Shown: positions 602-26,904, counted from the first letter of the stretch. The stretch: 27,463 nucleotides of DNA from a virus (IMGVR_UViG_3300025009_000331:1-27463); one strand, 5' to 3'. Numbers and translations are program-made. Notes: generated from the letters alone by a model not told the origin.

Positions 602-2180
602 AATCTATTATTTCCGCATGAGGTTTTTTATTAATATGAACACGTATTCTTTCAGGTTGTCGCAGTTCTTTTACAATCTGTAAAGCATCGTGCGTTAATA
701 CTGGCGGTTCGCTGGCGTGACGTCTGCGCCACCAATCCCGCGCCTTAGTTCTCGGAAACCCTTCGTGCTCTAAGCAAACCCACTCAGTAAACGAGTTCAG
801 ACCACAGGCATACATAACCTTGATACTTGGCGGCGAACCCTGCTTAGAATGCAAATGGTAGTAAACCGCGCTGACGTCGAACCACTCAAACGCCGGTTCT
901 GTTTCCAGACCTTTAATCAGTTCAGACCTTGACGCAAAATTCATTAGGTGCGATTTAAACGTAAATTCAAAACCGCAGTTGCAACAGAACCGAGCTGCGC
1001 CCCAATTGTAAGCGCTACACTTTTCGCATATCTTAATCGGTACTTCACCTGCTGATTTCTTCTGACCTGGTTTGGCAGGCTTTACGGGGTCGTTAATCGG
1101 CCCTAGCCGGTCAGTGTTTCGGGCAAAGTCCAAAACCAAGCAATTCTCTTTACCTGGTGATACACGAGTACCGCGCCCGAGCATTTGTACCCACAAATTA
1201 GGCGACATCGTGTGTCGAATCATTCCGATAAAGTCTACTTGTGGGCAGTCAAAACCGGTTGTCAATTTATCGCTATTCACAATACAACGTAACCGACCTT
1301 CTTTAAAATCTTCGATTGCTTTATCGTTTTCGTCAGCTTTCTTTTTAGAATGAACGGCACGAGAATCAACGCCAAAGCTTGTAAGTATTGCCGATATATG
1401 TTCGGCATGGTCAATGCCGTTGCAGAAAATTAACCAGCATTTGCGAGAATAAGCCTTTTCGATTATCTCTTTGCATACGTTGTAATTAATAATTTCTTTA
1501 TCAGTGGCCTTTTCTAATTCTTTTCGATTAAAGTCGCCAGCAACCATGCCCACACTAGAAACGTCAATTTCGGTTGTTGTCGGGAAAGGGATTAGCGGTG
1601 ATAAATAGCCTTCTGTAATGAATCTGATAAAACATTCAGGGGATGATAAATCAATACAAATATCAGTAAAGATACCATCGTCGGTTAACATGCCTTGTTT
1701 CAAACGATAAGGCGTTGCAGATAAACCAATTAGTTTTAAATGCGGGTTTATCTCTTTTAATTCATTAATTGTTTTTTGATACATACTTTCGCTACTTGGC
1801 GAAATTAAGTGGCATTCATCAACAATTATTAAGTCAATATGGCCAAATATTTTAGGGTTCTTACAAACAGAAGCAACCCCGCCGAATATAATAGGCATGT
1901 TAAAATCTTTTTGATTTAAACCAGCGCTATAAATACCAAGCGGGGCGGTCGGCCATATCCTTTGTAACGTTTTGGCGTTTTGTTCAATAAGTTCTTTAAC
2001 GTGCGTTAACATCATAATTCTTTGATTAGGATATATTGCAAATACACGTTTAATAAACTCACACAACGTTAGCGCTTTGCCTGTACCTGTCGGCATGACA
2101 ATAATCGGGTTTCCAGTCTTTTGCCTGAAATACTCAAAAACACTTCCAACCGCTTCTTCTTGATATGGCCTTAATTTCAT
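591..2180 (-). CDS. SF2 DEAD/DEAH-type DNA helicase
   Basis: A 529-residue superfamily 2 helicase. Visible motifs in order: Q-like LRPYQ at the N-terminus, motif I PTGTGKA (about residues 30-36), Ia LTHVKEL, II DECH, III LSATPYR, IV WLIFCNG, V TTGFDCP, VI QMLGRGTRV. A four-Cys zinc ribbon (CEKC...CCNC) follows the second RecA domain, then a tryptophan-rich C-terminal domain (EWVCLEH, WWRRR) often seen on phage helicases of this type. It presumably unwinds or remodels DNA in phage replication or recombination. Motif I ends in GKA rather than GKT/GKS, so the hydroxyl that normally helps bind Mg is missing. The gene follows the exonuclease by three bases, and its Shine-Dalgarno is weak, suggesting coupling. 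Confidence 0.92.
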   Translation of the reverse strand: MKLRPYQEEAVGSVFEYFRQKTGNPIIVMPTGTGKALTLCEFIKRVFAIYPNQRIMMLTHVKELIEQNAKTLQRIWPTAPLGIYSAGLNQKDFNMPIIFGGVASVCKNPKIFGHIDLIIVDECHLISPSSESMYQKTINELKEINPHLKLIGLSATPYRLKQGMLTDDGIFTDICIDLSSPECFIRFITEGYLSPLIPFPTTTEIDVSSVGMVAGDFNRKELEKATDKEIINYNVCKEIIEKAYSRKCWLIFCNGIDHAEHISAILTSFGVDSRAVHSKKKADENDKAIEDFKEGRLRCIVNSDKLTTGFDCPQVDFIGMIRHTMSPNLWVQMLGRGTRVSPGKENCLVLDFARNTDRLGPINDPVKPAKPGQKKSAGEVPIKICEKCSAYNWGAARFCCNCGFEFTFKSHLMNFASRSELIKGLETEPAFEWFDVSAVYYHLHSKQGSPPSIKVMYACGLNSFTEWVCLEHEGFPRTKARDWWRRRHASEPPVLTHDALQIVKELRQPERIRVHINKKPHAEIIDYDF

Positions 2181-2183
2181 ATT

Positions 2184-3073
2184 TTATAACTCTACTTGTT
2201 TTGTAATATCTTGCCAAGAATCACAACCAATTGCAATAAACTCTTTAGGTATTACTGCATTAAAAACAGCACAATGCCATTGGGCATTTTCAACAGGTTT
2301 TGCATTAATACAGCTTCTACAATTTTTTTCTGCTGGTTTACCTTCATGACAAATGGCAGATTTAGAACAAAACTTACAGGTAAAATGCGTCGGGTTTAAA
2401 CTAAATTTTGCTGGCGGCGATTGCGTGAAAATAATCTGTTCAGCTTTTTGAATTAATTGCTTGCCTAATTCATGGTCTAGCTTTACAAATTCAACGTGTA
2501 AATCGTCGTCGTTTTTATTAACATTCATGTACAGCGAATGCGTTAAACCTTCTTTATAACCATAGATACATTGTTGGGCGTAATGTACAGGCTTTGCAGT
2601 AACGACGCCGAAACTACTCAGTTTAGTGAATCCCGAACCTGTACCGTTTGTTTTGAACTCGCAAAGGAACTTACCTGGTATGCCGTAGGTTTCAGGAAAT
2701 TCAATCTTACCATCCATAGAGCCGCCAAAATGACCAAGGCAGTCACTAATGCGGAACTGCGGATAAGTGCCATCTTCTTTGACCGGCGCGTCTGTGTTGA
2801 ATTCCCATACGCCAAAACCTGCGCCTTTGAGCATTTCAACAAACTGTGCTTCTTCCCGATGGCCACGACGGAATAGCCGGTTCATCCGAGCGTCAAAAGT
2901 TTCAGCCTGCACCCAACGAAAGGTATACCAAAGGTAACGCTTGCAATCATGGCCAATTAAAGACGCGCCTAAATGTGACCGGTGACCGTCGTTATAAGTG
3001 CGTCAATATCACTTTTTATTTTTGTCGTTATTTGTTTTAGAATACCTGGCGTATTCAGATTTATTTCAGACAT
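2184..3073 (-). CDS. PD-(D/E)XK exonuclease, apparent frameshift near 5' end
   Basis: The uninterrupted frame from GTG 2912 gives 242 residues carrying the nuclease core: MDG (catalytic Asp) and, about 20 residues on, CEFKT (ExK), then KPVHYAQQC. A cysteine cluster CKFCSKSAIC plus a second CxxC...GC module lies at the C-terminus. That frame stays open back to 3002 and encodes TYNDGHRSHLGASLIG and LWYTFRW, which I recognise as the conserved N-terminus of phage nucleases of this family, but it has no ATG. A well-placed ATG at 3073 (AAAGG upstream, two bases after the SLOG gene stop) starts MSEINLNTPG in another frame and stops at 2969. Restoring one base near 2998-3001 joins both into a protein of about 296 residues. 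Causes could be a mutation, recoding or a sequence error. Role: probable 5'-end resection for recombination with the Sak4 ATPase and SSB. Confidence 0.85.
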
Positions 3074-3075
3074 TA

Positions 3076-3429
3076 TCAATACCTTTCTATATGAACTGGT
3101 TTATTTGACTTACGCATTAAATCAATCATATTCGACGTGCCTTTTGATTTGTAATCCCAAAAAGCAATTAAGTGCGTTGCTTCTTGTTCCATTTGACGAT
3201 TTCTTAAATAGCCTGCTTTCCTTCCATGTTCCACCCAATCAGCAGGAAAAGGCATCACAGTTAAACCAAACTCTTGTGCAAATTTATAACCAAGTTCATC
3301 AGCACCTTTAGCCATTCCACACAAAACAGTTATTTCAACTTTAGGTATTTGGCATAATAAAGCAGTACAAACTTTGCGTAAAAGCTCGTAATCTTTAAAA
3401 GTTCTACCGCCTGCTATAATAACTTTCAT
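3076..3429 (-). CDS. YspA-like SLOG-family protein (DUF2493)
   Basis: A 117-residue Rossmann-like protein with the family hallmarks: an N-terminal strand running into GGRTFKD, GMAKGADELGYKFA in the middle, then FPADW, GRKAGYLRNRQM and AFWDYKSKGTSNMI. The SLOG superfamily binds nucleotides or nucleotide-derived ligands; members occur in phages and near defence systems, but the substrate of this subgroup is not established. The ATG is preceded by AAGGA, and the TGA stop lies two bases before the ATG of the nuclease gene. A terminator separates it from the SSB gene upstream. Confidence 0.85.
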   Translation of the reverse strand: MKVIIAGGRTFKDYELLRKVCTALLCQIPKVEITVLCGMAKGADELGYKFAQEFGLTVMPFPADWVEHGRKAGYLRNRQMEQEATHLIAFWDYKSKGTSNMIDLMRKSNKPVHIERY

Positions 3430-3446
3430 TTTATCAATTCCTTAGA

Positions 3447-3472
3447 CAAAAAAGCGGTCATTACGACCGCTT
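3447..3472 (-). terminator. Intrinsic terminator downstream of SSB gene
   Basis: On the minus strand AAGCGGTC pairs with GACCGCTT around a five-base loop, followed by six Ts. It lies just after the SSB-like gene and before the SLOG gene, so it could lower transcription of the SLOG-exonuclease-helicase segment relative to SSB and Sak4. Confidence 0.8.
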
Positions 3473-3491
3473 AATTATTGTGGGCAAACAG

Positions 3492-4229
3492 TTAAGGTTT
3501 AGCGCCCCAAGGTGCTGTAGTTGCAACGGAAGCTTGTTGCGTTTGGCCCCATGCCGGTGCGGCCTGTGCCGGTGCTACGCTACTGGCCGGTTGTTCGGTT
3601 TGTTGTTGCTGTGCTTGTTGCTGGCCCCATGCAGGTGCCGCTTGTTGCTGCTGTTGTGCAGGGGCTGCTTGTTGTTGCGCCTGTTGCCCCCAACTTGCGC
3701 CCTGTTGTGCTGCTTGTTGAACCTGTGCATTTTGTGCCGGTGCTACTTTAGGGGCCTGACCTGGTTTAGCACCGCCAGTATCGAACACCGCTTTAATTTC
3801 TTTGTATGGTTCAACAGTTTCGCCCTGCGCTTGTTTTTCAAGCTGTTGTGGTGTCAGTTTTTGGTTTTGAACGTCAACCATAAAAGGAATGTTAAAAAGC
3901 TGTTGTAAATCCTGCACCTGGAAAATACCGGTAACATGGCAGATTGCAGATAACTGTTGACGGGCGATTTCAACCGTTTTTGGGTTTTCGTTATGAATGT
4001 TCAAACGATAATCCATCGTGCGGCCAAAATCAGGGTCGTTCGGGTCAATCGCTTCAACGGTAAAAACTACCATGCCGCCGTTGCCGCCTTTGGTGGTGGT
4101 CAATTCACCATCAATGATTTTGACAATGTGTTTGCCCACACTAAGAGTCGAGCCGCCTGTGGCCGGTGCTACTTGCGTTGCGTCGAATACGCCGCCAATT
4201 ACTGACGCTAAATTAGTTAATTTACTCAT
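3492..4229 (-). CDS. DUF669-type ssDNA-binding protein with Q/A-rich tail
   Basis: A 245-residue protein. Residues about 25-130 match the DUF669 pattern (KHIVKIIDGELTTTKGG, then FTVEAID, FGRTMDYRLNIHNENP and an IARQQLSAIC helix), a family found beside phage recombinases and regarded as single-stranded-DNA binding. Residues about 160-245 are low-complexity Ala/Gln/Pro with four Trp-Gly units (SWGQ, AWGQ, AWGQ, PWGA). The C-terminus is not acidic, unlike bacterial SSB. The gene follows the Sak4-like ATPase by nine bases; the ATPase stop sits inside this gene's Shine-Dalgarno (TAAGG). Likely coats ssDNA for the recombinase and replisome. Confidence 0.85.
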   Translation of the reverse strand: MSKLTNLASVIGGVFDATQVAPATGGSTLSVGKHIVKIIDGELTTTKGGNGGMVVFTVEAIDPNDPDFGRTMDYRLNIHNENPKTVEIARQQLSAICHVTGIFQVQDLQQLFNIPFMVDVQNQKLTPQQLEKQAQGETVEPYKEIKAVFDTGGAKPGQAPKVAPAQNAQVQQAAQQGASWGQQAQQQAAPAQQQQQAAPAWGQQQAQQQQTEQPASSVAPAQAAPAWGQTQQASVATTAPWGAKP

Positions 4230-4238
4230 TTTGCTACC

Positions 4239-4919
4239 TTATTGCATTGCTTTGTTGAAAATGTTGGTTAGGTTTGGTTGTTCAAATTCGGCTAAATTGC
4301 CGCTTCTGTCTCGGGCCAAAATATCGTAACTTGGCTGACAACGAACGGCAGTAACAGGTTTCGGGCCTGCGCCTGGGACTAGCGCCGGTGCAATATGCCA
4401 GATTTCGTCAAATAAGTGTGGAATTTTAACGTTAAGGTCTTGACCTGGAAAATAAGGTTTTTTGACCGAACCGTTATCATCAACAGTTATTTGCTTGCAT
4501 ATTAAATATAAATTAGTTTCAGGCTTAAAGTAAAGGTCGTTCACGTATTTCATTACGAATTGTGATAATTCGCCGTATGCTTTACGTGGGTCTTTATTTA
4601 GCGGCAAATAATGCGCTAATACAATTTCAGCTAATTGGCTTAAACTGTCAATACACAAAGTATCAAAAGCTTTAGCTTCAGCGCTACCAAAAAACCAGTC
4701 GAAAAACTCTTTAACTCGGGGCAATGTGTAGGCATCCCAAGCCGGTATATTATCAACTTTTCGCATTGATAACATACCTGGTTCACAGGCTAACAGTACC
4801 GGTCGGGGCGCTGTCTGAATCAATGGCGTTTTGCCTGAACCGGCAGGCCCATAAGCAATAGCCTTGACGCCGTTTCTGGCGGCTAACGTGCTTACCGGCT
4901 TTAGGTCGCTAATTTTCAT
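4239..4919 (-). CDS. Sak4-like RecA-fold ATPase (single-strand annealing)
   Basis: A 226-residue P-loop ATPase with Walker A GPAGSGKT at about residues 24-31 and Walker B FDTLCIDSLSQL at about 84-95. The conserved KQITVDDNGSVKKPYFPGQ segment and overall length fit the Sak4/AAA_24 group of phage recombinases. Sak4 proteins promote homologous pairing or annealing together with a phage SSB, and the SSB-like gene lies immediately downstream. AAGGA is placed five bases before the ATG. The start is one base after the stop of the upstream small gene, so the genes are co-translated. Confidence 0.88.
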   Translation of the reverse strand: MKISDLKPVSTLAARNGVKAIAYGPAGSGKTPLIQTAPRPVLLACEPGMLSMRKVDNIPAWDAYTLPRVKEFFDWFFGSAEAKAFDTLCIDSLSQLAEIVLAHYLPLNKDPRKAYGELSQFVMKYVNDLYFKPETNLYLICKQITVDDNGSVKKPYFPGQDLNVKIPHLFDEIWHIAPALVPGAGPKPVTAVRCQPSYDILARDRSGNLAEFEQPNLTNIFNKAMQ

Positions 4920-4920
4920 G

Positions 4921-5124
4921 CTAGTCCTTAACCAGTTCGTTAAACAAAACCCGACCTTGCGCGTGTACCAGTTCTGCGCTCGAATAGGTGATGATTGCCG
5001 TTGTATGTGGCGTAACCCACTGCGGATTATCGTTAAACCATTTTACTAAAGGCTCGCAAGCGTCGGCGAATGATTGCATTACTGTAGGCTCTGCTTTTAC
5101 TGTTACTGGGGTAGGTATTGTCAT
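4921..5124 (-). CDS. Small conserved phage protein (67 aa)
   Basis: A short protein with a pattern familiar from many phages next to recombination genes: EPLVKWF...NPQWVTPHTTAIITYSSAEL. No catalytic motif or membrane segment is seen. TAAGGATAAGTAAA precedes the ATG. It sits between the tRNA and the Sak4-like ATPase in the same operon. Function unknown. Confidence 0.75.
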   Translation of the reverse strand: MTIPTPVTVKAEPTVMQSFADACEPLVKWFNDNPQWVTPHTTAIITYSSAELVHAQGRVLFNELVKD

Positions 5125-5140
5125 TTTACTTATCCTTAAA

Positions 5141-5217: not shown

Positions 5218-5223
5218 TGTTAA

Positions 5224-5643: not shown

Positions 5644-5698
5644 GATGTTTGCCTTTTAAGTTGTTTGTTATTTACATGACTTATTATAATTATATTTT

Positions 5699-6211: not shown

Positions 6212-6238
6212 GCTGGTTGCCTTTTGCTTTTTAAAGTT

Positions 6239-6344: not shown

Positions 6345-6539
6345 ATGACTTTGCCCACAATAGGCCAACTAATAGAAATGCTTAAAAAACGACCCGCTGA
6401 CGTTAAATTATCCGACATAGTGCTTGCTACTGGTTGTAGTGAAAGCTGGTTAAATCAATTTATAGCGGGTAAAATCCCAAAACCTGGATATGACAAAATT
6501 TGTGCTATCGTCAATTACTTAAACAATAACAAGGTTTAA
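6345..6539 (+). CDS. Small HTH DNA-binding protein
   Basis: A 64-residue protein with a helix-turn-helix: KLSDIVLATGCSESWLNQFI (residues about 21-40), followed by a recognition-type tail GKIPKPGYDKICAIVNYL. This layout matches short Cro/XRE-like or primase-associated HTH proteins of phages. It ends one base before the ATG of the primase-helicase and is probably coupled to it. Its position beside a divergent promoter and an inverted repeat suggests autoregulation or control of the leftward operon. AAAAGG lies upstream of the ATG. Confidence 0.8.
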   Translation: MTLPTIGQLIEMLKKRPADVKLSDIVLATGCSESWLNQFIAGKIPKPGYDKICAIVNYLNNNKV

Positions 6540-6540
6540 C

Positions 6541-8838
6541 ATGCTGCAAAATTTGCCAATGGATTTACGCCAATATAAGCAATTTGTTTGCTGGCGGTAT
6601 GAAGATTTTGACGGAACTAAACCAACTAAAGTACCTTACAACCCTTCGACCGGCTACCCTGCCCGGGTTAACGACGGCGCTACCTGGAACGATTTTGAAA
6701 CGTGTGTTGACGCTGTTGAAAAAGGCAACTATTCCGGTGTTGGTTTTGTTCTGACTGAACACGACCCGTTTACCTTTATCGACCTTGACGATACCGAAGG
6801 CAATGCCGATATGTTGAACATTCAAATGAAGATATTTGAAGCGTTTGACAGTTACGCGGAAATCAGCCCAAGCGGTAAAGGCTTGCATATTATCGTTAAA
6901 GGTAAAGTGCCGTCAGGCCGCAAGCGCTCAAAAATTGAAGTTTACTCAGACCTTCGCTTTATGACCGTTACCGGCAATGTCTACAGAAACGCCCCTATTC
7001 GTGACCATGACGAGTTAGTCAACAGATTGTGGGCAGACATGGGGCGCAACACTCAAACCGAAGGACACGACCCCTACGCACAGCAAACCGCAACAGACGA
7101 AGAAGTAATAAACGCAGCCGTTACCGCGTCCAACGGTGAAAAGGCTATGGATTTGGCCCAAGGTAATTGGCAAAAATATTACGCATCACAATCTGAAGCC
7201 GATTTAGCTTTAATAAATATCATCAGTTATTACACTCAAAATCGTGACCAAATTATTAGACTATTTAAAGCCAGTGCTTTGGGTACTCGCAATAAGCAAA
7301 CGACTATACGCGGTGTTGATTATCTGAATTACATGATTAATAAAAGTTTTGATAGACTTTTACCACCTGTTGATATTCAAGCTTTACAAAATAACTTACA
7401 AGCTGCTTTAGAACAGAACATGCGCCGAGTGCCGCAAGAATGCGCCCCGTTACCGGCAATTATCGAACAGCCTAAAGAAGTTTCAGATTGTTATTTTCCG
7501 CCTGGTTTGGTCGGTGAAATCGCCCAATTTATTTACGACTCTGCGCCAAGGCCGGTAAAAGAAATTGCGTTAGGCGGTGCTATCGCATTGATGGCGGGTA
7601 TTGTGGGCAGGTCTTACAACATCAGCGGCGGCGGTTTAAATCAGTACATTCTTATCCTGGCGGGTACAGGTCGCGGTAAAGAAGCGATTGCAAGCGGTAT
7701 TGACAAGATAATGACCCGCGTTATCAAGACGGTGCCAACCGCTATGGATTTTATCGGCCCTGCTGAAATATCATCCCCACAAGCATTAGTTAAATATATG
7801 GCCAAAGCGACTTGCTTTGTTTCAATGATTGGCGAATTCGGCCTGAAGTTGCAACAGCTTAGCAGCGCAAGGGCTACCCCGATTGATTTAGGCTTGCGCC
7901 GTATGATACTGGATTTATACGGTAAATCAGGTGAAGGTAAATTGGTTAGGCCAACGATTTACAGCGATAAAGATAAAAACACAGAATGTATTTTATCACC
8001 TGCTTTTTCAATTATGGGCGAAACAACGCCAGAAAGATTCTATGAATGTTTAAATGAAGGCATGGTATCTGAAGGTTTATTACCGCGCTTTTTCTGTATT
8101 GAGTTTAAAGGCAAAAGACCGCCATTAAATGACAACCATTTACACGTTAAACCTTCTGAAACTCTAATTAGCAGAATAAGCACTTTATGCGCGAATAGCG
8201 CCATGATGAACAGTCAAAATAAAGCTGTTAACGTTGAATTAAGTCCTGAAGCAAAGAAAGTTTTAGACGTATTTAATGAATACTGTGACGCTGAAATAAA
8301 CGAATCTGACCGCGAAATAAAAGCGCAATTGTGGAATCGTGGCCACTTAAAAGCTTTACGCTTATCAGCGACTGTTGCAGTTGGTATGAATCCCTGGCAA
8401 CCGGTTGTTGACGAAGAAGTTGCTCGGTGGTCAATTGCTTTAATCATTAAAGATATTAAAAATATCACTAATAAATTTGATTTGGGTGAAATTGCATCTG
8501 ATGATGATGAAGGTAAGCAAATTACTTTAGCACTGAATTTTATCCGCGAATATGTTACTAAAAACTGGCCAGAAATCGCCAAGTACAAAGCGTCAACGGC
8601 TATCCTGCATGGCGAACGTGTTATACCTATGTCTTATATGTATAAACGCGCTTCCGGTGTTGTTGCTTACAAGAAAGACCGGCGCGGAACATCTGAAGCA
8701 ATGAAACGTGCAATGAAAGTTTTAGTTGAACGTGGTGATATTATCGAAGTACCTAAGATGCAAACTATGCAACGGTTTAACACAAGCGCTGTTTGCTTTA
8801 TGGTTAACGATAACAGGATATTATCAGGGGCGTACTGA
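6541..8838 (+). CDS. Primase-polymerase / DUF3987-like helicase
   Basis: A 765-residue replication protein. The N-terminal archaeo-eukaryotic-type primase (prim-pol) core shows FTFIDLDD (residues about 77-84, catalytic DxD), SPSGKGLHIIVKGK (about 105-118) and a VYSDLRFMTVTGN strand. A linker leads to a P-loop domain from about residue 315 (YFPPGLVGEIAQF) with the Walker-A-like AGTGRGKEA and a degenerate Walker B region (SMIGEFG instead of a DE pair), typical of the DUF3987-type helicase-like module. The end (EAMKRAMKVLVERGDIIEV) looks like a winged helix. It probably primes and unwinds DNA in phage replication. It is the last gene of the short rightward operon and is followed by an intrinsic terminator. 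Confidence 0.88.
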   Translation: MLQNLPMDLRQYKQFVCWRYEDFDGTKPTKVPYNPSTGYPARVNDGATWNDFETCVDAVEKGNYSGVGFVLTEHDPFTFIDLDDTEGNADMLNIQMKIFEAFDSYAEISPSGKGLHIIVKGKVPSGRKRSKIEVYSDLRFMTVTGNVYRNAPIRDHDELVNRLWADMGRNTQTEGHDPYAQQTATDEEVINAAVTASNGEKAMDLAQGNWQKYYASQSEADLALINIISYYTQNRDQIIRLFKASALGTRNKQTTIRGVDYLNYMINKSFDRLLPPVDIQALQNNLQAALEQNMRRVPQECAPLPAIIEQPKEVSDCYFPPGLVGEIAQFIYDSAPRPVKEIALGGAIALMAGIVGRSYNISGGGLNQYILILAGTGRGKEAIASGIDKIMTRVIKTVPTAMDFIGPAEISSPQALVKYMAKATCFVSMIGEFGLKLQQLSSARATPIDLGLRRMILDLYGKSGEGKLVRPTIYSDKDKNTECILSPAFSIMGETTPERFYECLNEGMVSEGLLPRFFCIEFKGKRPPLNDNHLHVKPSETLISRISTLCANSAMMNSQNKAVNVELSPEAKKVLDVFNEYCDAEINESDREIKAQLWNRGHLKALRLSATVAVGMNPWQPVVDEEVARWSIALIIKDIKNITNKFDLGEIASDDDEGKQITLALNFIREYVTKNWPEIAKYKASTAILHGERVIPMSYMYKRASGVVAYKKDRRGTSEAMKRAMKVLVERGDIIEVPKMQTMQRFNTSAVCFMVNDNRILSGAY

Positions 8839-8856
8839 TTGCCCACAATACCAATT

Positions 8857-10447: not shown

Positions 10448-10873
10448 TTAACCCTCACCAACTAAATATTTAACAATCATTTCCCAAGCTTCGAGCCAGT
10501 CATAACAGACAATCCAGCCATAGCCTTGTTTGTGGGCAAAGTCTCTAAACTCGGCCTGCTTTTCACTGACGCCACCGCTTGAACCTGGTCGTTTAGGCCG
10601 CATTGCCGGTTTTTTCATTTCGATATATAAGCCATGACAATTTTGTCTTGCAACCGGCAAAAATATATCGGGTATACCTTCTTTAACGCCTTCCGCTTTG
10701 AGCTTACCGCCGCGAATAGCATTACCCCTAGCATCGTCAGCCCTAGCGCCGCCGTTGGGTATATGGTGCATCCACTGCAATTGTGGATAGGTTTTTAAGT
10801 GCAAAGCAGCCATACAGAACAGGGCTTGCTGGTGACTGCTTTCACTGTCTTTTGCTATTTGTTCGGGACGCAT
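10448..10873 (-). CDS. VRR-NUC domain nuclease
   Basis: A 141-residue protein of the VRR-NUC branch of the PD-(D/E)XK fold. Visible: HIPNGGARADD near residue 37, the catalytic GIPDIFLP (Asp) near 66, YIEMKKP (ExK) near 84, then SEKQAEFRDFAHKQGYGWIVC and a C-terminal helix. Stand-alone phage VRR-NUC proteins act on branched or Holliday-type DNA, so a junction-resolving role in replication or packaging is plausible. AAGGTAA, containing the end of the upstream gene, precedes the ATG. Confidence 0.9.
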   Translation of the reverse strand: MRPEQIAKDSESSHQQALFCMAALHLKTYPQLQWMHHIPNGGARADDARGNAIRGGKLKAEGVKEGIPDIFLPVARQNCHGLYIEMKKPAMRPKRPGSSGGVSEKQAEFRDFAHKQGYGWIVCYDWLEAWEMIVKYLVGEG

Positions 10874-12874: not shown

Positions 12875-13294
12875 TTATAAAATTTCTTTATTAAACCAGT
12901 AATCGCTTACAATTTTGATTACCTGGCGACACTGATAAACGCTGAACCATGCAATATGGCAATCGTCAACGTTTAACCCCATCTTACCGGCCAGCAACAA
13001 ATAAGCGTCTGTTCGGCTCATGTGGGCAGTAATACCGCGCCACAGCATATCAAAGGCTTTGTGTGCTTCTAACTTTGCATGGCGACCTGCTTTAGTGCTT
13101 GCATAGCCTAACGGGATTTCGGTTCCTTTATGGCAAGCTACAAAACATAATTCATGGTTATTTTCACAAAAATAAAAAACTTTGTTTTTATATTCTTGTC
13201 GATGGTGGCCTATTTTTTCACCGGTTCCCTTATTTAAACGTTGCCCACAAATTGTACATTTGTAATGCTCTACCCTGGTTTGTATTGTTGGCAT
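12875..13294 (-). CDS. DUF3268 zinc-finger-containing protein
   Basis: A 139-residue protein with CTICG near residue 13, a second Cys set (FYFCENNHELCFVACH) near 41-56, then the family signature EIPLGYASTKAGRHAKLEAH, FDMLW, RTDAYLLLAGKMGL and CHIAWF. DUF3268 proteins occur in phages and prophages and are assumed to bind zinc; activity is unknown. AAAGGA lies about ten bases before the ATG. Confidence 0.85.
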   Translation of the reverse strand: MPTIQTRVEHYKCTICGQRLNKGTGEKIGHHRQEYKNKVFYFCENNHELCFVACHKGTEIPLGYASTKAGRHAKLEAHKAFDMLWRGITAHMSRTDAYLLLAGKMGLNVDDCHIAWFSVYQCRQVIKIVSDYWFNKEIL

Positions 13295-14359: not shown

Positions 14360-14641
14360 TTATTCCTTGCAACCATTTTGTAATGCGCGCTCTTTTGCTT
14401 TTTCGTAGAATGGCGAATCTTTAAAAAATGTAATGCGGCTTGTTTCAAAGTAATCAGTCATTGAATCACTATCGTTTTTAACGCCAGAATCGAATACCTT
14501 TTGCAAGTTGCGTTTATATTCTTTTTCGTACAGCGTTACGCATTCACGTCCATCAATGCGGTTGTTTAAAGAATAAAATACTTTTGCTTTTTCGCCATTG
14601 GTTTTATTAACTACAGCATGTTTATTAAATTGAATAATCAT
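14360..14641 (-). CDS. Conserved phage protein (93 aa)
   Basis: Contains the sequence KAKVFYSLNNRIDGRECVTL and NDSDSMTDYFETSRITFF, a pattern I associate with a widespread small phage protein of unknown function. It is soluble, with no cofactor motif. AAAGGA precedes the ATG. Confidence 0.72.
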   Translation of the reverse strand: MIIQFNKHAVVNKTNGEKAKVFYSLNNRIDGRECVTLYEKEYKRNLQKVFDSGVKNDSDSMTDYFETSRITFFKDSPFYEKAKERALQNGCKE

Positions 14642-15257: not shown

Positions 15258-15479
15258 TTAATTTATGCCTAATTGTTTAGCCGCTTTATCTGCTATGTAA
15301 TCAAGACAAGTGTTATGTATGTCCTTTTCTTGCCACTCAGCCAGCGTATAATAGCCGCTAACCCGTTTACCGGTTACATTACAATACATTGCCCACAATT
15401 TGCTGTTACCGGTAACGCCTGGACTTTCAACCGATAACAAAAGCTTTTCGGCCTTTTCGCGTAATTCCTGGTAAGTCAT
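15258..15479 (-). CDS. Hypothetical protein (73 aa)
   Basis: I use ATG 15479 (MTYQELREKAEKLLL) rather than the longer in-frame start in the upstream gene, because a TTTAAATTAAGGA leader (15500-15488) stands eight bases before it. A helical N-terminus is followed by YTLAEWQEKDIHN and a C-terminal helix. Unknown function. Confidence 0.7.
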   Translation of the reverse strand: MTYQELREKAEKLLLSVESPGVTGNSKLWAMYCNVTGKRVSGYYTLAEWQEKDIHNTCLDYIADKAAKQLGIN

Positions 15480-16592: not shown

Positions 16593-16795
16593 TTTATAAA
16601 CTCCAATAACGTTAAACCGTTTAATTCTAAGCTACGATTTACCGCATCCGTCGCGCTGCAATGCTTATGTTGCGTTGCCCACAACTCAGGATATTCTGTG
16701 CCGTCCGTTATGGTTTGCCAGTCGCTTACCTGGTCATACACTTTAACAAGTTTACCGCATACTGTGCGCGCTATTTTTACCGGTGGATTATTCAT
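16589..16795 (-). CDS. Hypothetical protein (68 aa)
   Basis: A soluble small protein (VCGKLVKVYDQVSDWQTITD, ELWATQHKHCSATDAVNRSL). No family recognised. The upstream stop forms part of AAAGGTTAA, its Shine-Dalgarno. One copy of the TGTGGGCA word lies within the gene. Confidence 0.68.
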   Translation of the reverse strand: MNNPPVKIARTVCGKLVKVYDQVSDWQTITDGTEYPELWATQHKHCSATDAVNRSLELNGLTLLEFIK

Positions 16796-16958: not shown

Positions 16959-17035
16959 TTTTAATCACCTTCTCTATTGTGGGCAAAATTGATTTACCAA
17001 TGCCGTCGATTACAACGGCATTAATTAAATTAACT

Positions 17036-18037: not shown

Positions 18038-18288
18038 GCTAAGTTCCCCTGCTCTAAGTCGTTGCCAATATCAGTATGCAATTTCAGCATTGCGCGCATA
18101 GTTACCATTTCGGTGCCCATCTCAAACGTCTTATCATGTAAAGCGATTGCATAAGCGACAGTTGCCCACAATTCAAGAAGCTGTTGATAGTTGTAAGCCA
18201 ATAAATAGCAGTCGGTGATGGCATTAACAAAGCGAGTAAAACCGTAGTTGGTGATAAATGCGTTAACCTTCATTTCGTGTTTATTCAT
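18034..18288 (-). CDS. Hypothetical helical protein (84 aa)
   Basis: First gene of the leftward accessory block. An all-helical, soluble protein (FITNYGFTRFVNAITDCYLL, QLLELWATVAYAIAL). AAGGGA lies before the ATG, and a promoter candidate is about 50 bases upstream. No family recognised. Confidence 0.7.
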   Translation of the reverse strand: MNKHEMKVNAFITNYGFTRFVNAITDCYLLAYNYQQLLELWATVAYAIALHDKTFEMGTEMVTMRAMLKLHTDIGNDLEQGNLA

Positions 18289-18853: not shown

Positions 18854-19087
18854 TTGTATAAAATACGACGCAAACCAGGCTATTTTGAGATGTTTTAGCA
18901 GATACCATTATTCATGCCGTGAATGGCGCAATTGTTAAAAGAATTAACATAACGCACAGAATGCGTCAGGTTGCGAGATTGTGGGCATACCCAGGCTTTG
19001 CCCTTGCTAAAAATTGCGCTTAACCTAGTGCGATTGGCTGCGTTTAAATAGGTGATAAAATAAATGCAAAAATATACGCTTTATTAC

Positions 19088-19757: not shown

Positions 19758-20189
19758 AAAATGTAAAATATTTGTTAGCAGATTGTAAAAAAAGTGTTGC
19801 CAAGCATGCTTTTTCACGCATTCTCCCCTCTCCCCACCCCACACACATTTTTGCTAGTTTCAAATCCTATCCATGCTAATAACATAATAGACAACAAAAC
19901 AATTGCATTAATAGCTAACATAAGAAATGTTTAATACCGATGTATAGAAATTGACTAGACCCTTGAAGGTAGAATCTAATTTTTATAAATTTCTATATGC
20001 TATATAAAAAATCACTAACCCTTGAAGGTACAAAAATATTTTTTGACCTCTGTATACAAAAAAGTTAAATGGCTGAAGGTACAAAAATATTTTTTGAAAA
20101 ATTACAATCCTAAAAGGTTGACAGAAACTGATTACAGGCCCACACTGTTTAGCACACCCATTATTGTGGGCATAACAGGAGATAACCCG
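19758..20189 (+). other. Long leader with no gene
   Basis: 432 bases without a convincing gene: AT-rich, with a C-rich segment at 19824-19846 and the three CCTTGAAGG-type repeats. A frame open from 20022 joins the next gene, but its N-terminus merely translates the direct repeats twice (VQKYFL) and has no ribosome site. Confidence 0.5.
19959..20097. repeat. Direct repeats with CCTTGAAGG core
   Basis: ACCCTTGAAGGTA occurs at 19959-19971 and 20018-20030. The second copy is the start of a 24-base sequence (20023-20046) repeated perfectly at 20074-20097. CCTTGAAGG is near-palindromic. Distances are 59 and 51 bases. Candidate operators or phage-specific promoter elements upstream of the small-regulator operon. 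Confidence 0.8.
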
Positions 20190-21246: not shown

Positions 21247-21271
21247 TTTACTAAACTCAAAAAGGTGATTT

Positions 21272-22093: not shown

Positions 22094-22221
22094 ACAAAAT
22101 AAAACTAATTGTAAAAATGGCAATTAAATGGATTTTGGTTTTATTTTGCATGAGTTCGGCTTTACCTGCTGCGATTTTCGGATTAAAGTTAATCGCGGCG
22201 TATAATGTGGGCAAACTATGA
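22087..22221 (+). CDS. Small membrane protein (44 aa)
   Basis: ATG 22087 overlaps the stop of the zinc-finger gene and encodes a basic N-terminus MLNKIKLIVKMAIK followed by WILVLFCMSSALPAAIFGLK, a transmembrane or signal-like helix. The stop overlaps the next ATG as ATGA. The Shine-Dalgarno is weak, so expression would be coupled. The TGTGGGCA word lies near its end. Function unknown. Confidence 0.55.
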   Translation: MLNKIKLIVKMAIKWILVLFCMSSALPAAIFGLKLIAAYNVGKL

Positions 22222-22334: not shown

Positions 22335-22374
22335 TATGCAGTAGTGTACCAAAATAGCAGTCGTACTTACTGTA

Positions 22375-22400
22375 TTTTGCTGTTTATATGTTTAGCAAAA
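22375..22400. promoter_or_regulatory. Inverted repeat upstream of the tail module
   Basis: TTTTGCT (22375-22381) and AGCAAAA (22394-22400) are exact inverted copies flanking a TTTATATG segment. It lies 17 bases before the adaptor gene ATG and its Shine-Dalgarno; could be an operator or leader hairpin for late genes. Confidence 0.45.
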
Positions 22401-22416
22401 CAAAAGGTTTATTAAA

Positions 22417-22848
22417 ATGAGCATTGGAAACATATTGCGAAAAGGCGAACGAAAGTTCTTTTTTGATAAAGAGTTAAAACTCGGCAAAATTCAAAAATAT
22501 ACTTTTGACGTTTCTTCTTGGTTAGAAGACGAAAAAGGTATAGCGGCGCCTGATACTTTAACCAATGCTTCAGCCGAGTCTGTTTTGGGTTTTTGTACTG
22601 TATCGCCTTGCCAAATTAACCAAGGGTTTATAACATTTTTTGCCACAGGTGTTAATTTAGGCAACGATATTATCAGAGTTTCATACGCGACCGCTACCCA
22701 ACAAGACAGCGACGACTTGCGACTTAATGTGCAAAAAATTAGCTGGTTTTTGCCTGAAGACAATGTTAATAATTTTATATCAGACGATGGCTATCTAATT
22801 TCAGATGGTTATCTTTTAGATGACGCATATTTACTTGAAGGGGTTTAG
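22417..22848 (+). CDS. Tail fibre/spike adaptor-like structural protein
   Basis: A 143-residue protein beginning MSIGNILRKGERKFFFDKEL. The central part (YTFDVSSWLEDEKGIAAPDT, GFITFFATGVNLGNDIIRVSY) resembles phage fibre-tail adaptor proteins, with an Ig/FN3-like strand pattern. The C-terminus has three short repeats (DGYLI, DGYLL, DAYLL). It ends two bases before the tail-spike gene, supporting a role in attaching the spike to the virion. AAAGG is nine bases before the ATG. Confidence 0.65.
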   Translation: MSIGNILRKGERKFFFDKELKLGKIQKYTFDVSSWLEDEKGIAAPDTLTNASAESVLGFCTVSPCQINQGFITFFATGVNLGNDIIRVSYATATQQDSDDLRLNVQKISWFLPEDNVNNFISDDGYLISDGYLLDDAYLLEGV

Positions 22849-22850
22849 AC

Positions 22851-24641
22851 ATGCCGTATGAAAGATTAACTTCTGCCCTAACCGGTGGGCCAGGAGTAAG
22901 CCAAGGACAAGACGTAAAAACAGTGGTCAATTCTATTGCAACCGGCCTTGAAGCTGCTGAAGTTACTTTAGCTGCGATTGTCGAGCACGCAGAAACAACC
23001 GACACCGCATTAACAGCATTAACTGACCGCGTAGATACTGCTGAAGGTGAAATTGCAGAGGTTGCCACTGCGGTTAATGGGTTGATTGGTGCCAACTACT
23101 ACCCTAAACTAACGGATGAAATGACGCCAGAGCAAGTTCGGCAAGCGATTAACGCCAGCATTTTGACTGCGTACAATATGGGTGGCGGAGCTGTAAATAT
23201 TCCCAAGGGTACTTATGTAATTAATGGGGCAATTATCCCACTTCCACTGGTGCGAGTTCGCGGGGCTGGGCTCGGCTTAACAATCATAAAAATGGACAAA
23301 GACGTCAACCCATCCGCTAACAGCTCAGAGGGTTACGGTAACAATGCGAACTGCATCAACGTTCAGCCAAGGATCTTGATTCCTTCCTTGCCAGACAAAT
23401 CATGGATTGAGATCTCAGATATGACTATCGATTTTAACTATCCAGAGATTGTCGCAACTGGTGCTTTTTCTGCTGAGTGGGCAACAAGAACAGCAGGCGC
23501 AGCGCTGGACAATGTTGGTAATGGGATAACTGCTCGCGGTGCTGCTGGTGACTTTCTTCACGGCCTGAAAATTGAACGAGTAAGGTGTATCAACGCGGCG
23601 TTCCACGGTATCGCTGTTTACATGAACACATCAAACATCCGAGTTTGTAATAACGAATTCGAAAATAACGGCTACAGGGCTTGCCACATTCACGGAGACG
23701 AAGGCACTGAAACTGTCGAAGACATCATTGTCACTGGAAACTTAGCGGTTGGAAATGGCGTTGTTGCTGGTGCGTTAGTGGCTAACCCAGCCTCGCTGAA
23801 CGGCGGAATGTATGTGTTCTTCCACAACGCCAAGCGGGGAATTATTGCTAACAACATTGTCAGGATGGATAAAGGTGTCGGCATTCATGCGTGGGGCAAC
23901 ACTATTGTTGGTGCTACATCTGACAGCCTGGTGATCGAAGGGAATATAATCGACCGGTGCGCCACTGGGATACTTTTAGGTAACGGACTTAACGGATTGT
24001 CAGTCACTGGCAACGTGATTACATACAGCCGCAGCCAAGCGAGCGGAGCGGGTGACGCAGCGAAAGGACGCGGTATCGATTGCACAGCTACTGTGACTAG
24101 TATGGGAGCTTCAGTGACCGGTAACACCGTATTTGGCTGTGACGGTATGGGCGTCAAACTCGCCAATATTGATGGATTATCGTGGGCGGGTAACACGGTT
24201 CAGAATTGCAACACGACAAACGAGAATCAGGCTGTTGTGTTGTCGAACATCAGACATGCCAGCATTTCTGGTGGTTCTATTTTCAATAATGGGCGAGTAG
24301 TTGCGGACTTTTGTAATCAGCTGGCAATCGAAGCAACTATGGCTACAAACGCAACAGAGACCGCTGGCACGCATGAAGTTATTGTAAGTGGCGTTTTTAT
24401 AAGTGGGGGGCAGCGCGGAAATGCGCCTACCGTAGTTGTTCAAGGTGGCACGGCGGCATCTCCACACTGCAAAGCGGTAACGTTCCAAGGTAATAAGATA
24501 CGCAGGCCGCTGAACGCTGCCGGTAACGTAGTGGATCTGACTGCAAGGGATAGTCGAGTTATGTATAACGACATACTGACAGGAACGATTTTGGACAAAA
24601 TGACTCCAGGAACAACGAACCAGGTTGTTGGGAACTACTAA
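22851..24641 (+). CDS. Tail spike with right-handed beta-helix (pectate-lyase-like)
   Basis: A 596-residue receptor-binding protein. Residues about 1-90 are helical/coiled (TALTALTDRVDTAEGEIAEV) and probably bind the virion. From about 100, GGGAVNIPKGTYVINGAI marks the start of a pectate-lyase_3-type beta-helix, with repeated rungs VTGNLAVGNG, IEGNIIDRC, VTGNVITYS, VTGNTVFGC, WAGNTVQNC and similar to the end. Such spikes often degrade capsule or O-antigen, but catalytic residues cannot be named here. The coding sequence from about 23.1 kb is visibly more GC-rich than its neighbours and lacks the TGTGGGCA word, indicating recent modular exchange. Two terminators follow. Confidence 0.85.
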   Translation: MPYERLTSALTGGPGVSQGQDVKTVVNSIATGLEAAEVTLAAIVEHAETTDTALTALTDRVDTAEGEIAEVATAVNGLIGANYYPKLTDEMTPEQVRQAINASILTAYNMGGGAVNIPKGTYVINGAIIPLPLVRVRGAGLGLTIIKMDKDVNPSANSSEGYGNNANCINVQPRILIPSLPDKSWIEISDMTIDFNYPEIVATGAFSAEWATRTAGAALDNVGNGITARGAAGDFLHGLKIERVRCINAAFHGIAVYMNTSNIRVCNNEFENNGYRACHIHGDEGTETVEDIIVTGNLAVGNGVVAGALVANPASLNGGMYVFFHNAKRGIIANNIVRMDKGVGIHAWGNTIVGATSDSLVIEGNIIDRCATGILLGNGLNGLSVTGNVITYSRSQASGAGDAAKGRGIDCTATVTSMGASVTGNTVFGCDGMGVKLANIDGLSWAGNTVQNCNTTNENQAVVLSNIRHASISGGSIFNNGRVVADFCNQLAIEATMATNATETAGTHEVIVSGVFISGGQRGNAPTVVVQGGTAASPHCKAVTFQGNKIRRPLNAAGNVVDLTARDSRVMYNDILTGTILDKMTPGTTNQVVGNY

Positions 24642-24646
24642 AACAA

Positions 24647-24668
24647 AAAGCCCTCAACCGAGGGCTTT
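24647..24668 (+). terminator. Terminator hairpin after tail spike
   Basis: AAAGCCCTC and GAGGGCTTT pair around AACC five bases after the spike stop. The T-run is short, but the hairpin works in both orientations. Confidence 0.7.
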
Positions 24669-24700
24669 CAACCTAAAATAATCAATTCTCCGTAGTACTT

Positions 24701-24723
24701 GCCCGGTTATTGCCGGGCTTTTT
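24701..24723 (+). terminator. Second intrinsic terminator after tail spike
   Basis: GCCCGG and CCGGGC pair around TTATTG and are followed by five Ts, a strong rho-independent signal. In tandem with the previous hairpin it separates the tail module from the lysis module. Confidence 0.88.
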
Positions 24724-24731
24724 AAGTTAGC

Positions 24732-24760
24732 TTGACACTTTTAAAAATTTAAAGTAATTC
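24732..24760 (+). promoter_or_regulatory. Strong sigma-70 promoter for the lysis/packaging operon
   Basis: TTGACA (24732-24737), exactly 17 bases, TAATTC (24755-24760). It lies directly after two terminators and about 33 bases before the first lysis-region ATG. Confidence 0.8.
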
Positions 24761-24792
24761 TATTCAAGTTTTAATAAAATCGTAGGTGGCTT

Positions 24793-24924
24793 ATGAAAGA
24801 ACGAAATTGGGGCTTATTGACAGGTTACGGCGAAGGTATTCTTTGTATTAAACATTGTTACATGCCTGGTACGGGCGAACATGATGACGATGACAAGGAT
24901 GACCCGAAAGACCCGCCTAAGTAA
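24793..24924 (+). CDS. Small acidic-tailed protein (43 aa)
   Basis: MKERNWGLLTGYGEGILCIK is followed by HCYMPGTGEH and an Asp/Pro/Lys tail (DDDDKDDPKDPPK). First gene after the strong promoter; AGGTGG precedes the ATG and the stop overlaps the next ATG (TAATG). No family recognised. Confidence 0.65.
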   Translation: MKERNWGLLTGYGEGILCIKHCYMPGTGEHDDDDKDDPKDPPK

Positions 24925-25379
24925 TGTGGGTATCGTTTGATGTATTTATGGTGGCCGTCTGGTTAATTGTGGCGGCCTGTAATAGACAAGGTTTTATTTG
25001 TTGCCTTTTACTTGTCTATTACATTTTTATTTATAATTTACAAACTTCTAATTTTCACTTGTTTCTTCTTGCTTCGTCTGCTCATTTTTTAGCCGCTTCT
25101 TCTAATTTCATAACTTTATCAACTATTCGTAAAGTTTTATTTTTGCAAGCCTGTATATTTTACATAGCTGCTATTGATAAAGTTGCATATCAAAACTTTA
25201 ATCTAATCAGTGATTTCAAAACAATCAGACCTTACTTGTTGACGTTTTTAGATTTTTACATGATTGGTATACTGATGAGGGGCCGTTTTGATGGATTATA
25301 TAGTTTGGTTGCTAACGGTCTTTGTTATGGGTTATTATTCATTAAAACGCATACTTCGGATTTTAAGGCTGGAAAATGA
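24924..25379 (+). CDS. Polytopic membrane protein (151 aa)
   Basis: Several hydrophobic segments: residues about 5-20 (FDVFMVAVWLIVAAC), 24-38, 44-60, 68-86 (KVLFLQACIFYIAAIDK), 103-117 and 124-140, suggesting four to six transmembrane helices. Codon and base use are strongly AT-rich. It is coupled to the acidic peptide gene upstream (TAATG) and to the holin-like gene downstream (ATGA). It may belong to the lysis machinery, but no family is recognised. Confidence 0.7.
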   Translation: MWVSFDVFMVAVWLIVAACNRQGFICCLLLVYYIFIYNLQTSNFHLFLLASSAHFLAASSNFITLSTIRKVLFLQACIFYIAAIDKVAYQNFNLISDFKTIRPYLLTFLDFYMIGILMRGRFDGLYSLVANGLCYGLLFIKTHTSDFKAGK

Positions 25380-25681
25380 ACGTAAAGCAAATGTTAATAG
25401 AACTGAGCGAAATGATGGGTAACACATTACCTACTTTGTATCATAAAGCTTTTATGTGGTTTGCTGGAACAAGTTTAGTTTTAAATGTAGGTGATGCCGC
25501 CGATGATTATTTACCTGCATGGTTATCGAACGCAATACAGTACGTTATGGGTGTTGACTATATCGCGTTTTTTTCAGGGCTTGCTATTATTCTTCTTTGC
25601 GTGGAACGCGCTTTAGTTTTGGGCCTAAGACTTAGGCGAATTTTAAACGGTGATTATTCAATACAAAAGCCAGGTGAATAA
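25376..25681 (+). CDS. Holin-like membrane protein (101 aa)
   Basis: Residues 26-40 (AFMWFAGTSLVLNVG) and 62-84 (YIAFFSGLAIILLCVERAL) are hydrophobic, and the C-terminus (RLRRILNGDY) is charged. Size, two membrane segments and position immediately before the endolysin (1-base overlap, TAATG) fit a holin. The small membrane protein after Rz1 is a rival candidate. Confidence 0.7.
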   Translation: MNVKQMLIELSEMMGNTLPTLYHKAFMWFAGTSLVLNVGDAADDYLPAWLSNAIQYVMGVDYIAFFSGLAIILLCVERALVLGLRLRRILNGDYSIQKPGE

Positions 25682-26121
25682 TGACGTATTTAGAATTTAA
25701 AGAATCATGTAAGCAGTGGCTTTTTGACTTCGGTAATTATTCCGAAGCTCGGGTTGAACTGCTGGCTATGCTTTGTGCGCATGAGTCGTTAGGCGGTCGC
25801 TATCGCAAGCAAGTTAACGGCCCTGCCCTGTCTATCTACCAGGTTGAGAAAATCGCACACGACGACGCATGGAACCGGCACCGCAGCATTAAAATGCGTG
25901 CTATGCAAAGCGGCGTTGTTCAAGACTGGCCATTAATGGAACATTCCGACAAGTACGCTACGTTTGTCGCTATGCACATCATCGCGCTTGACCCGAACCC
26001 GATACCGACTGAACCTGAACAAATGGCGCAGTGGTGTAAAAAACATTGGAATAAAGGCGGTAAGGCAACACCGGAGAAATATTTAAATGATTACACTAAG
26101 TGGATTAACGGCAAACTATAA
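25681..26121 (+). CDS. Endolysin (lysozyme/transglycosylase-like)
   Basis: A 146-residue muralytic enzyme. LLAMLCAHESLGGRYRKQ carries the likely catalytic Glu35, followed by GPALSIYQVE (48-57) and THDD-like AHDDAW; the C-terminal WCKKHWNKGGKATPEKYLND is typical of this phage endolysin family. It has no signal peptide, so export to the periplasm would need the holin. It lies between the holin-like gene and Rz, the standard lysis order. AGGTGA precedes the ATG. Confidence 0.85.
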   Translation: MTYLEFKESCKQWLFDFGNYSEARVELLAMLCAHESLGGRYRKQVNGPALSIYQVEKIAHDDAWNRHRSIKMRAMQSGVVQDWPLMEHSDKYATFVAMHIIALDPNPIPTEPEQMAQWCKKHWNKGGKATPEKYLNDYTKWINGKL

Positions 26122-26533
26122 AAGACAAATAGTATTTGTTTTACTTTTGTCTTTATGTTTTTATTTATTGTATGCTTTGGCTTACGATAAAGGCTACGAC
26201 AAGGCTTCTGAAAATTTTGAAAATTTGCAAAAAATAGCATTAAAAGAAGCTTTGATTGATTACGACAAAAAAGTTAAAGAAGCTTTTGCCCACAAAGAAA
26301 AAGACATTGTACAGGCTGAAGTAATAAAACAAGCCGAAACGATAGTAAAAACAAAAGTACAAACGGTGACTAAATATGTTGACAAAATTATTGTTACAAA
26401 TGAGTGCAATTCTTTGGCTACTAATGTTGTCAGCTTGCTCAGTGAATCGACCGGTATTGTTAGAGAAGTTACCGGAAGCCCCGATAGCCAAAATAGAACC
26501 GAGGCTAACAACACCTTGCGACGAACCTTTTGA
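26087..26533 (+). CDS. Rz: Rz-like inner-membrane spanin subunit
   Basis: A 148-residue i-spanin: an N-terminal anchor (IVFVLLLSLCFYLLYALAY, residues 15-33) and a charged, coiled-coil periplasmic region (LKEALIDYDKKVKEAFAHKE). With Rz1 it bridges inner and outer membrane and disrupts the outer membrane in the last step of lysis. Starts inside the endolysin gene (35-base overlap) with GGAG upstream; the Rz1 frame lies in its 3' part. Confidence 0.85.
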   Translation: MITLSGLTANYKRQIVFVLLLSLCFYLLYALAYDKGYDKASENFENLQKIALKEALIDYDKKVKEAFAHKEKDIVQAEVIKQAETIVKTKVQTVTKYVDKIIVTNECNSLATNVVSLLSESTGIVREVTGSPDSQNRTEANNTLRRTF

Positions 26534-26657
26534 CATAACAAAAAACATGCCATTACAAACGGCTTTAAATAATTTAGTAATAAATCATGGTATTTACGCA
26601 AAGTGTTATTTAAAGCAGAAGGAATTGTCAGATGCGGTTATCAGACGAGGTTACTAA
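26376..26657 (+). CDS. Rz1: Rz1-like outer-membrane lipoprotein spanin subunit
   Basis: A 93-residue o-spanin in another frame, starting inside Rz and extending 124 bases past its end. The signal sequence MLTKLLLQMSAILWLLMLSA ends at the lipobox LSAC with Cys21 as lipidation site. The mature part contains prolines (RPVLLEKLPEAP) as is usual for Rz1. GGTGA lies before the ATG. The overlapping-frame arrangement is diagnostic of Rz/Rz1. Confidence 0.88.
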   Translation: MLTKLLLQMSAILWLLMLSACSVNRPVLLEKLPEAPIAKIEPRLTTPCDEPFDITKNMPLQTALNNLVINHGIYAKCYLKQKELSDAVIRRGY

Positions 26658-26904
26658 AACATTAACTGTAATGTTTGGCTTTATTTGGCAACAACCTTTA
26701 CCAGTAACATTACGACAACTCAGAATAATTCAGGTCGGTTTAATAATAAACAGTCAGTATTTGTTATGGGTTATTGTGGGCATGTTACATACTTTAGACC
26801 CCGTTCAGGCTGCTATGGCCTACGCAACAATAGCAGTTACTTTGGTCGGTAGCATTTGGAAATGTATTGACAGCTTTAACAAAGGTACTGTAAAAGACGA
26901 ATAA
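26632..26904 (+). CDS. Small membrane protein, possible second holin (90 aa)
   Basis: Two hydrophobic segments: residues about 31-54 (IIQVGLIINSQYLLWVIVGM) and 60-78 (AMAYATIAVTLVGSIWKCI), with a short charged C-terminus (NKGTVKDE). AAGGA is eight bases before the ATG; it overlaps Rz1 by 26 bases. It lies before the terminase genes. It may be a holin, antiholin or unrelated membrane protein. Confidence 0.68.
   Translation: MRLSDEVTKTLTVMFGFIWQQPLPVTLRQLRIIQVGLIINSQYLLWVIVGMLHTLDPVQAAMAYATIAVTLVGSIWKCIDSFNKGTVKDE

Follow-up and report, generated by a model that had tools for sequence, protein, structure and literature searches.

An evenly spaced, conserved 8-base word in tailed-phage genomes as the putative recognition site of an NrS-1-type primase-polymerase

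The 8-base word TGTGGGCA occurs 20 times in the window, by which we mean the whole analysed stretch of 27,463 bases from a virus record, and it is likely that the word represents the putative recognition site of the phage's own primase-polymerase (PrimPol) of the NrS-1 type. This explanation is supported by the enrichment of the word, its independence of the host, its exact conservation, its regularity on each strand, its association with the PrimPol gene, and the homology of the enzyme, including the NrS-1 priming residues. With somewhat less assurance, we propose that a large set of tailed phages probably keeps genome-wide arrays of 8-base primase start sites, even on each strand and selected even inside genes, and that the dialect of the word shifts with residues 226 and 239 of the helix bundle domain (HBD), enzyme and sites co-evolving. 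Primase sites are of a known kind; what is new here is the evenly spaced, selected, dialect-forming 8-base array.

The exact copies, 11 on the plus strand and 9 on the minus strand, span positions 1240-26782, and our recount is identical to that of a preliminary description of this DNA. The chance expectation is below one, as claimed there: dinucleotide shuffles give 0.71 copies with a maximum of 3 in 100 shuffles, and a second-order Markov model gives 0.49, nowhere near 20, the resulting z of 19.6 being the highest among the 8-mers of the window. TTGTGGGCA is present 16 times against 0.2-0.34 expected. A count of single-base variants found those of the 9-mer to be scarce, with 1-2 each, and TGTGGGTA occurs three times. 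The family-wide unit is TGTGGGCA, and the additional 5' T is a mere A/T preference upstream; in the phages with TGTGGGCA, the two bases 5' of the word are A/T-rich, which is where a new chain would begin. By simple ORF calls, 10 copies run in the sense of their gene, 6 run against it and 4 lie outside ORFs, in line with the earlier statement that both strands and different frames are involved. The earlier figure of five intergenic copies varies with the gene calls used. Both copies that had been placed directly after the SSB and primase stops were located. The copies and the genes relevant to them are as follows.

1240..1247, plus strand: TGTGGGCA copy within the SF2 helicase gene
1547..1554, minus strand: TGTGGGCA copy within the SF2 helicase gene
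3479..3486, plus strand: TGTGGGCA copy directly 3' of the SSB stop
4133..4140, minus strand: TGTGGGCA copy within the SSB gene
6345-6539: small HTH gene just upstream of the primase
6352..6359, minus strand: TGTGGGCA copy at the 5' end of the HTH gene that precedes the primase gene
6541..8838, plus strand: NrS-1-type primase-polymerase with fused MCM-like AAA+ helicase domain, 765 aa, the proposed reader
7028..7035, plus strand: TGTGGGCA copy within the primase gene
7189..7353, plus strand: HBD, residues 217-271 (PF22763 NrS1-1_pol-like_HBD, E 4.8e-7), the proposed word-reading domain
7501..8475, plus strand: MCM-like AAA+ helicase domain, residues 321-645, by fold match to MCM chains
7602..7609, plus strand: TGTGGGCA copy within the primase gene
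8840..8847, minus strand: TGTGGGCA copy directly 3' of the primase stop
10531..10538, plus strand: TGTGGGCA copy
13021..13028, plus strand: TGTGGGCA copy
13242..13249, minus strand: TGTGGGCA copy
15390..15397, minus strand: TGTGGGCA copy
16676..16683, minus strand: TGTGGGCA copy
16978..16985, plus strand: TGTGGGCA copy between ORFs
18163..18170, minus strand: TGTGGGCA copy
18980..18987, plus strand: TGTGGGCA copy outside the listed ORFs
20165..20172, plus strand: TGTGGGCA copy
22206..22213, plus strand: TGTGGGCA copy
26287..26294, minus strand: TGTGGGCA copy within the Rz-like spanin gene
26775..26782, plus strand: TGTGGGCA copy

The largest gap between copies, 4.07 kb, lies over the spike gene. 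It had been read as acquired DNA not yet populated by the word; uniform placement yields a gap at least as large in 62% of draws, so that its size is unremarkable and that reading finds no support. No relatives of the spike protein were found in viral contigs.

The best-supported candidate reader is the phage's own primase-polymerase, a homologue of NrS-1 PrimPol. Residues 9-271 of the window primase match NrS-1 PrimPol structures (N300) with an E value of 2e-25; the protein also matches PHROG 3022 DNA primase, and a DUF3987 match lies in its C-terminal part. The AlphaFold model of the primase has a mean pLDDT of 84.7 and a pTM of only 0.51. When this model was used in a fold search, six NrS-1 entries ranked first over residues 1-275 (Z 19.2-19.4), their large rmsd of about 12 being an effect of domain placement. 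MCM helicases came next for residues 321-645 (Z ~17-18, rmsd ~3.5, 14-18% identity), and this match and that to DUF3987 identify a C-terminal AAA+ helicase domain. The DxD and His residues of an AEP PrimPol catalytic domain (D81, D83 and H116) are invariant among 26 sequences, as are S109 and S111 of an SPS loop, which at residues 109-111 replaces the zinc finger, and the HBD matches PF22763 above cut-off. In the NrS-1 HBD, R249, K251 and Y261 are required for priming (PMC8718748). They correspond to R250 and K252 (both invariant among the 26 sequences) and Y261 of the window primase, with the R-x-K offset by one residue between the two proteins in the ungapped alignment. NrS-1 PrimPol initiates DNA at 5'-TTTGGTTA-3', and better at 5'-GTGG-3', starting from the first base upstream (PMC8718748; recognition sites also in Zhu et al. 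2017, as cited in PMC8718748 and PMC7102993); biochemically, only GTG(G) is essential. Related phages carry the word in dialects of the general form TGTGG-N-Y-A, as established by two scans with PrimPol alignments. All dialects include GTGG preceded by T (TGTGG or TTGTGG), which agrees with the site known for NrS-1 PrimPol, and the dialect TGTGGTTA is one base apart from TTTGGTTA.

The presence of the word follows the primase gene over its neighbouring genes. Among 119 long PrimPol loci, some of which are one contig fetched twice, 76% reach a z of 4, about a quarter staying below it; six scrambled cores used as controls reach this level in 0.4%. A control scan started from the Cas4 exonuclease of phage 16-3 and comprised 42 loci, each 12 kb or longer, encoding Cas4 (42), Sak4 (42), SF2 helicase (41) and SSB (32). 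The word stayed below z 4 in all 40 of these loci without an NrS-1-type PrimPol and in both with a distant one. This result bears on the suggestion of a Chi-like site, at which the SF2 helicase and Cas4 exonuclease of the phage, acting as a helicase-nuclease, would read the word and so control end resection or recombination. The two genes do adjoin in every array-bearing phage examined, and a strand-specific word would suit a translocating nuclease. Chi, too, is an iterated, asymmetric, G-rich octamer, but it is read by the host RecBCD/AddAB, whereas TGTGGGCA is host-independent and tracks the phage primase, and the dialects fit the published NrS-1 primase sites (PMC8718748). We therefore regard a Chi-like site as improbable; the Cas4, SF2 helicase, Sak4 and SSB proteins were set aside as readers on the control scan, and the link proposed earlier between a Chi-like role and the exonuclease/Sak4/SSB set is not supported.

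Association with the PrimPol gene could also arise if the word served another part of the replisome (family-B polymerase, clamp), packaging or genome organisation, and was merely co-inherited with PrimPol. The array-bearing phages do encode a family-B polymerase and a clamp alongside PrimPol. NrS-1, Lactobacillus A2, phi105 and Sasha encode PrimPol homologues, and word counts revealed no array in them, only a mild excess of TGTGGAYA in NrS-1 (10 vs 2.7); such arrayless phages, e.g. NrS-1, A2 and phi105, have no such annotated polymerase or clamp. On the other hand, phage 16-3, with a different primase (PF09250 plus AAA_25), has a clamp and lacks the word, and the GTGG core is a known PrimPol site (PMC8718748). 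A replisome, packaging or organisation site thus has a low probability in our estimate. To our knowledge, sequence recognition of this kind has not been described for family-B polymerases or clamps, which also weighs against it. The distant PrimPols of temperate phages lack the array, and the arrayless PrimPol phages are evidence against PrimPol alone being sufficient. One reading is that dispersed priming may be needed only by phages with their own full replisome.

The copies of the word are retained by selection. Of 96 copies aligned between related genomes, 72 are unchanged, where the rate at neighbouring 8-mers predicts 19.2; between Loki and IME_AB3 all 12 of 12 copies are kept, compared with 11% of the neighbouring 8-mers. 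Free synonymous drift within the copies is thereby excluded. Enrichment independent of the host, exact retention of copies and association with one phage gene together point to a phage-encoded reader. The word is under selection and read by a protein, most likely one of the phage. Of the earlier proposal that a phage or host protein reads the word, selection and a phage reader are upheld, and reading by the host is not.

The word might also serve as a stoperator or operator for a different phage protein, the small HTH protein whose gene (6345-6539) precedes that of the primase. Its gene adjoins the primase in most relatives, a TGTGGGCA copy sits at its 5' end, and stoperators are scattered asymmetric phage words. 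Mycobacteriophage L5, for instance, has about 20-30 asymmetric stoperators scattered over its genome, a number similar to that seen here. Stoperators lie for the most part between genes and point along transcription, whereas the word considered here is mostly intragenic and found in both orientations: 381 copies from 15 genomes divide into 193 sense, 149 antisense and 39 outside ORFs. Its sites are also evenly spaced on each strand. Moreover, the HTH proteins of relatives are only 10-39% identical to that of the window and their recognition helix is not conserved, yet the word is constant. The HTH operator was rejected on the unconserved helix, and the stoperator parallel drawn earlier is quite unlikely to hold.

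The PrimPol reading gains further support from the distribution of the word among related phages. TGTGGGCA is the top 8-mer in eight relatives infecting several host genera, which answers the earlier call for a check of related phages: Kakheti25 (19 copies, Pseudomonas), KL1 (18, Burkholderia), IME_AB3 (24, Acinetobacter), Halfdan (20, E. coli), RcSpartan (16, Rhodobacter), Lucius (19, Sphingomonas), Pfeifenkraut (18, Xanthomonas) and LPPA15 (19, Pseudomonas). It is also strong in Loki (13 copies) and Axy18 (11), the expectation for each of these genomes being 0.2-0.8. Queuovirinae use the dialects TGTGGTTA or TGTGGTCA (slur01, 37 copies; TIVP-H6, 27; R7M, 25 and 16), the tail-sheath-encoding Salmonella phage yarpen uses TTGTGGGT (29 copies), another contig uses TGTGGGTA (14 copies), and the TGTGGAYA dialect is present in Shewanella S0112. 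Each array-bearing genome has about 12-40 evenly spaced copies on both strands. The same word thus recurs in phages whose hosts are gamma-, beta- or alphaproteobacteria, and within a single host species the words of different phages differ (Kakheti25 vs TIVP-H6 in P. aeruginosa, Halfdan vs slur01 in E. coli; the three E. coli or Salmonella phages likewise differ in dialect), which means that the word is not set by the host. Host Chi sites, DNA uptake sequences or imported host repeats, although Chi and uptake sequences are iterated asymmetric words and had been offered as parallels, are for these two reasons extremely improbable and were discarded.

Dialects instead track phage lineage. A dialect could be called for 93 of 128 distinct primases, many of the remainder being short fragments, with N being G in 68, T in 14, A in 10 and C in 1. 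On the PrimPol tree, a large clade has G at N throughout; the clade to which Variovorax phage VPv64 and the Queuovirinae belong has mostly T, A or C there. Dialect labels require 33 changes on this tree, a quick one with some long branches, vs 53.6 when shuffled, and none of 200 shuffles was as low. Two HBD residues covary with base 6. Arg occupies position 239 in 23 of the 24 phages whose base 6 is T, A or C, and in none of the 67 that have G there. At position 226, all 67 G phages carry D or N, and 23 of the 24 others carry S, A or T. L173, a phage of the G dialect that falls within the T/A clade, differs from its sister rows at 239, having Thr in place of their Arg. It should be mentioned that many other columns follow clades too, and the covariation of 226 and 239 with base 6 backs reading of the word by the primase, short of proof.

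The variation of gaps between copies is below that of random placement in 15 of 15 genomes (CV 0.47-0.77), with P <= 0.05 in 12. Each strand taken alone is evenly spaced, with CV mostly 0.2-0.7 vs about 0.9 for matched words, the controls being hundreds of words of similar count from the same genome. By these controls, evenness per strand gives P 0.02 for the window, and the word comes first or close to it in each of Halfdan, RcSpartan, Lucius, slur01, TIVP-H6 and yarpen; combined over 14 genomes, Fisher p is 3e-20, an optimistic value since related genomes share sites by descent. Site density in the window is one per 2.5-3 kb on each strand. Copies alternate between strands (p 1e-9) because each strand is regular on its own: sliding one strand against the other made no significant change, and dependence across strands was dropped as a candidate.

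In the proposed mechanism, the HBD of the enzyme would bind the word on an exposed single strand, and the enzyme would begin a new chain with dNTPs at the base directly 5' of GTGG. This base is the constant T, so that the first nucleotide of the chain would be A; extension would probably be carried out by the phage's own replicative polymerase. With a separate evenly spaced set of sites on each strand, either exposed strand could be primed along its length. This PrimPol may read all 8 bases, and the sites may serve lagging- or second-strand priming.

Among known systems, NrS-1 PrimPol is the closest in kind, with a homologous enzyme (PrimPol domain, HBD, SPS loop, C-terminal AAA+ helicase) and the GTGG core. 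It differs in copy number: the 8-base site was reported to occur just twice in NrS-1, close to the middle of the genome (PMC7102993), against about 12-40 evenly spaced copies here. ORF904 of the archaeal plasmid pRN1 is also an AEP PrimPol whose HBD reads a motif, 5'-GTG-3', with the start outside the motif (PMC8718748); its site has three bases, and the enzyme is plasmid-borne with a zinc finger. T7 gene 4 primase starts chains at the template word 5'-(G/T)2GTC-3' (PMC12839067). It is likewise a phage primase initiating at a defined template word, but an unrelated TOPRIM enzyme making RNA primers, whose 5-base site needs no enrichment. We know of no array of this kind for the T7 sites, and known phage primase sites are mostly short enough for chance to supply. 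In the phages described here, which span many host genera and more than one type of tail, each strand seems to carry an 8-base site whose placement is kept up along its length. Should the explanation be true, the starts of DNA strands in these phages could be mapped from sequence, covariation would link a primase domain with its word, and the dialects would make up a set of naturally matched enzymes and sites on which sequence reading by primases can be studied. The repeat would also gain a function, and phage fragments could be assigned to this replication type by its presence. No paper naming the word as a phage motif was found in a literature search that covered sources outside subscription journals and preprints, and the genome papers checked do not mention the repeat.

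Terminator-like use was considered in a scan of viral contigs for inverted pairs and rejected, the hits being mostly chance matches and an unrelated soil iteron cluster. The window has the gene order of Septimatrevirus Kakheti25 (SF2 helicase, Cas4 exonuclease, SSB, Sak4, MazG, small HTH, primase), and its primase is ~54% identical to Septimatrevirus and Kilunavirus primases. In Kakheti25, a minus-strand copy of the word likewise lies just upstream of the HTH gene, and a copy within the primase gene occupies Ile-Val-Gly codons matching the window copy at 7602..7609.

The word also occurs in shifted form as dialects, TTGTGGGG in four of the compared contigs (L124, L125, L126 and L127; 14-20 copies in 16-22 kb) and TTGTGGGT in the Salmonella phage yarpen (L055). 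Other strongly iterated words were found over the whole of two further contigs, GCCAGAGC in L095 and CGCAGCTC in L136, each with 19 copies and an adjoining PrimPol gene; these may be local repeats. The window itself carries, over its whole length, the weaker iterated words CCGGTAAC/GTTACCGG (9 copies) and AAATTAAGGA (6 copies).

In L001, a contig with its own dialect, word pairs form two inverted repeats:

L001 14481-14515, inverted repeat made by a word pair
L001 20142-20175, inverted repeat made by a word pair

The pair at 14481-14515 folds into a hairpin that may act as a terminator; the fold is stable, at -20 kcal/mol with a z of -4.3.

Clustered repeats of TGTGGGCAA type are found in soil virus contigs:

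L009 2751-3051, TGTGGGCAA-type repeat cluster
L015 85-491, TGTGGGCAA-type repeat cluster

Similar clusters are present in the soil virus contigs L017, L025 and L036, and these soil clusters hold approximately 10-14 repeats per 300-400 bp, in tandem and inverted arrangement. Among the proteins encoded by the repeat-bearing L015 is one of 717 aa that contains DUF5906 (PF19263), which is present in the NrS-1 PrimPol as well. The clusters may represent an iteron origin of a related replicase.

One further gene of the window was compared with viral contigs, among which no relatives were found:

22851-24641, beta-helix tail spike gene

The helicase part of the window PrimPol (gene 6541-8838, plus strand; residues 321-645) resembles archaeal and eukaryotic MCM AAA+ domains, with Z of about 17-18, and this MCM-like part sits in an enzyme of a bacterial phage.
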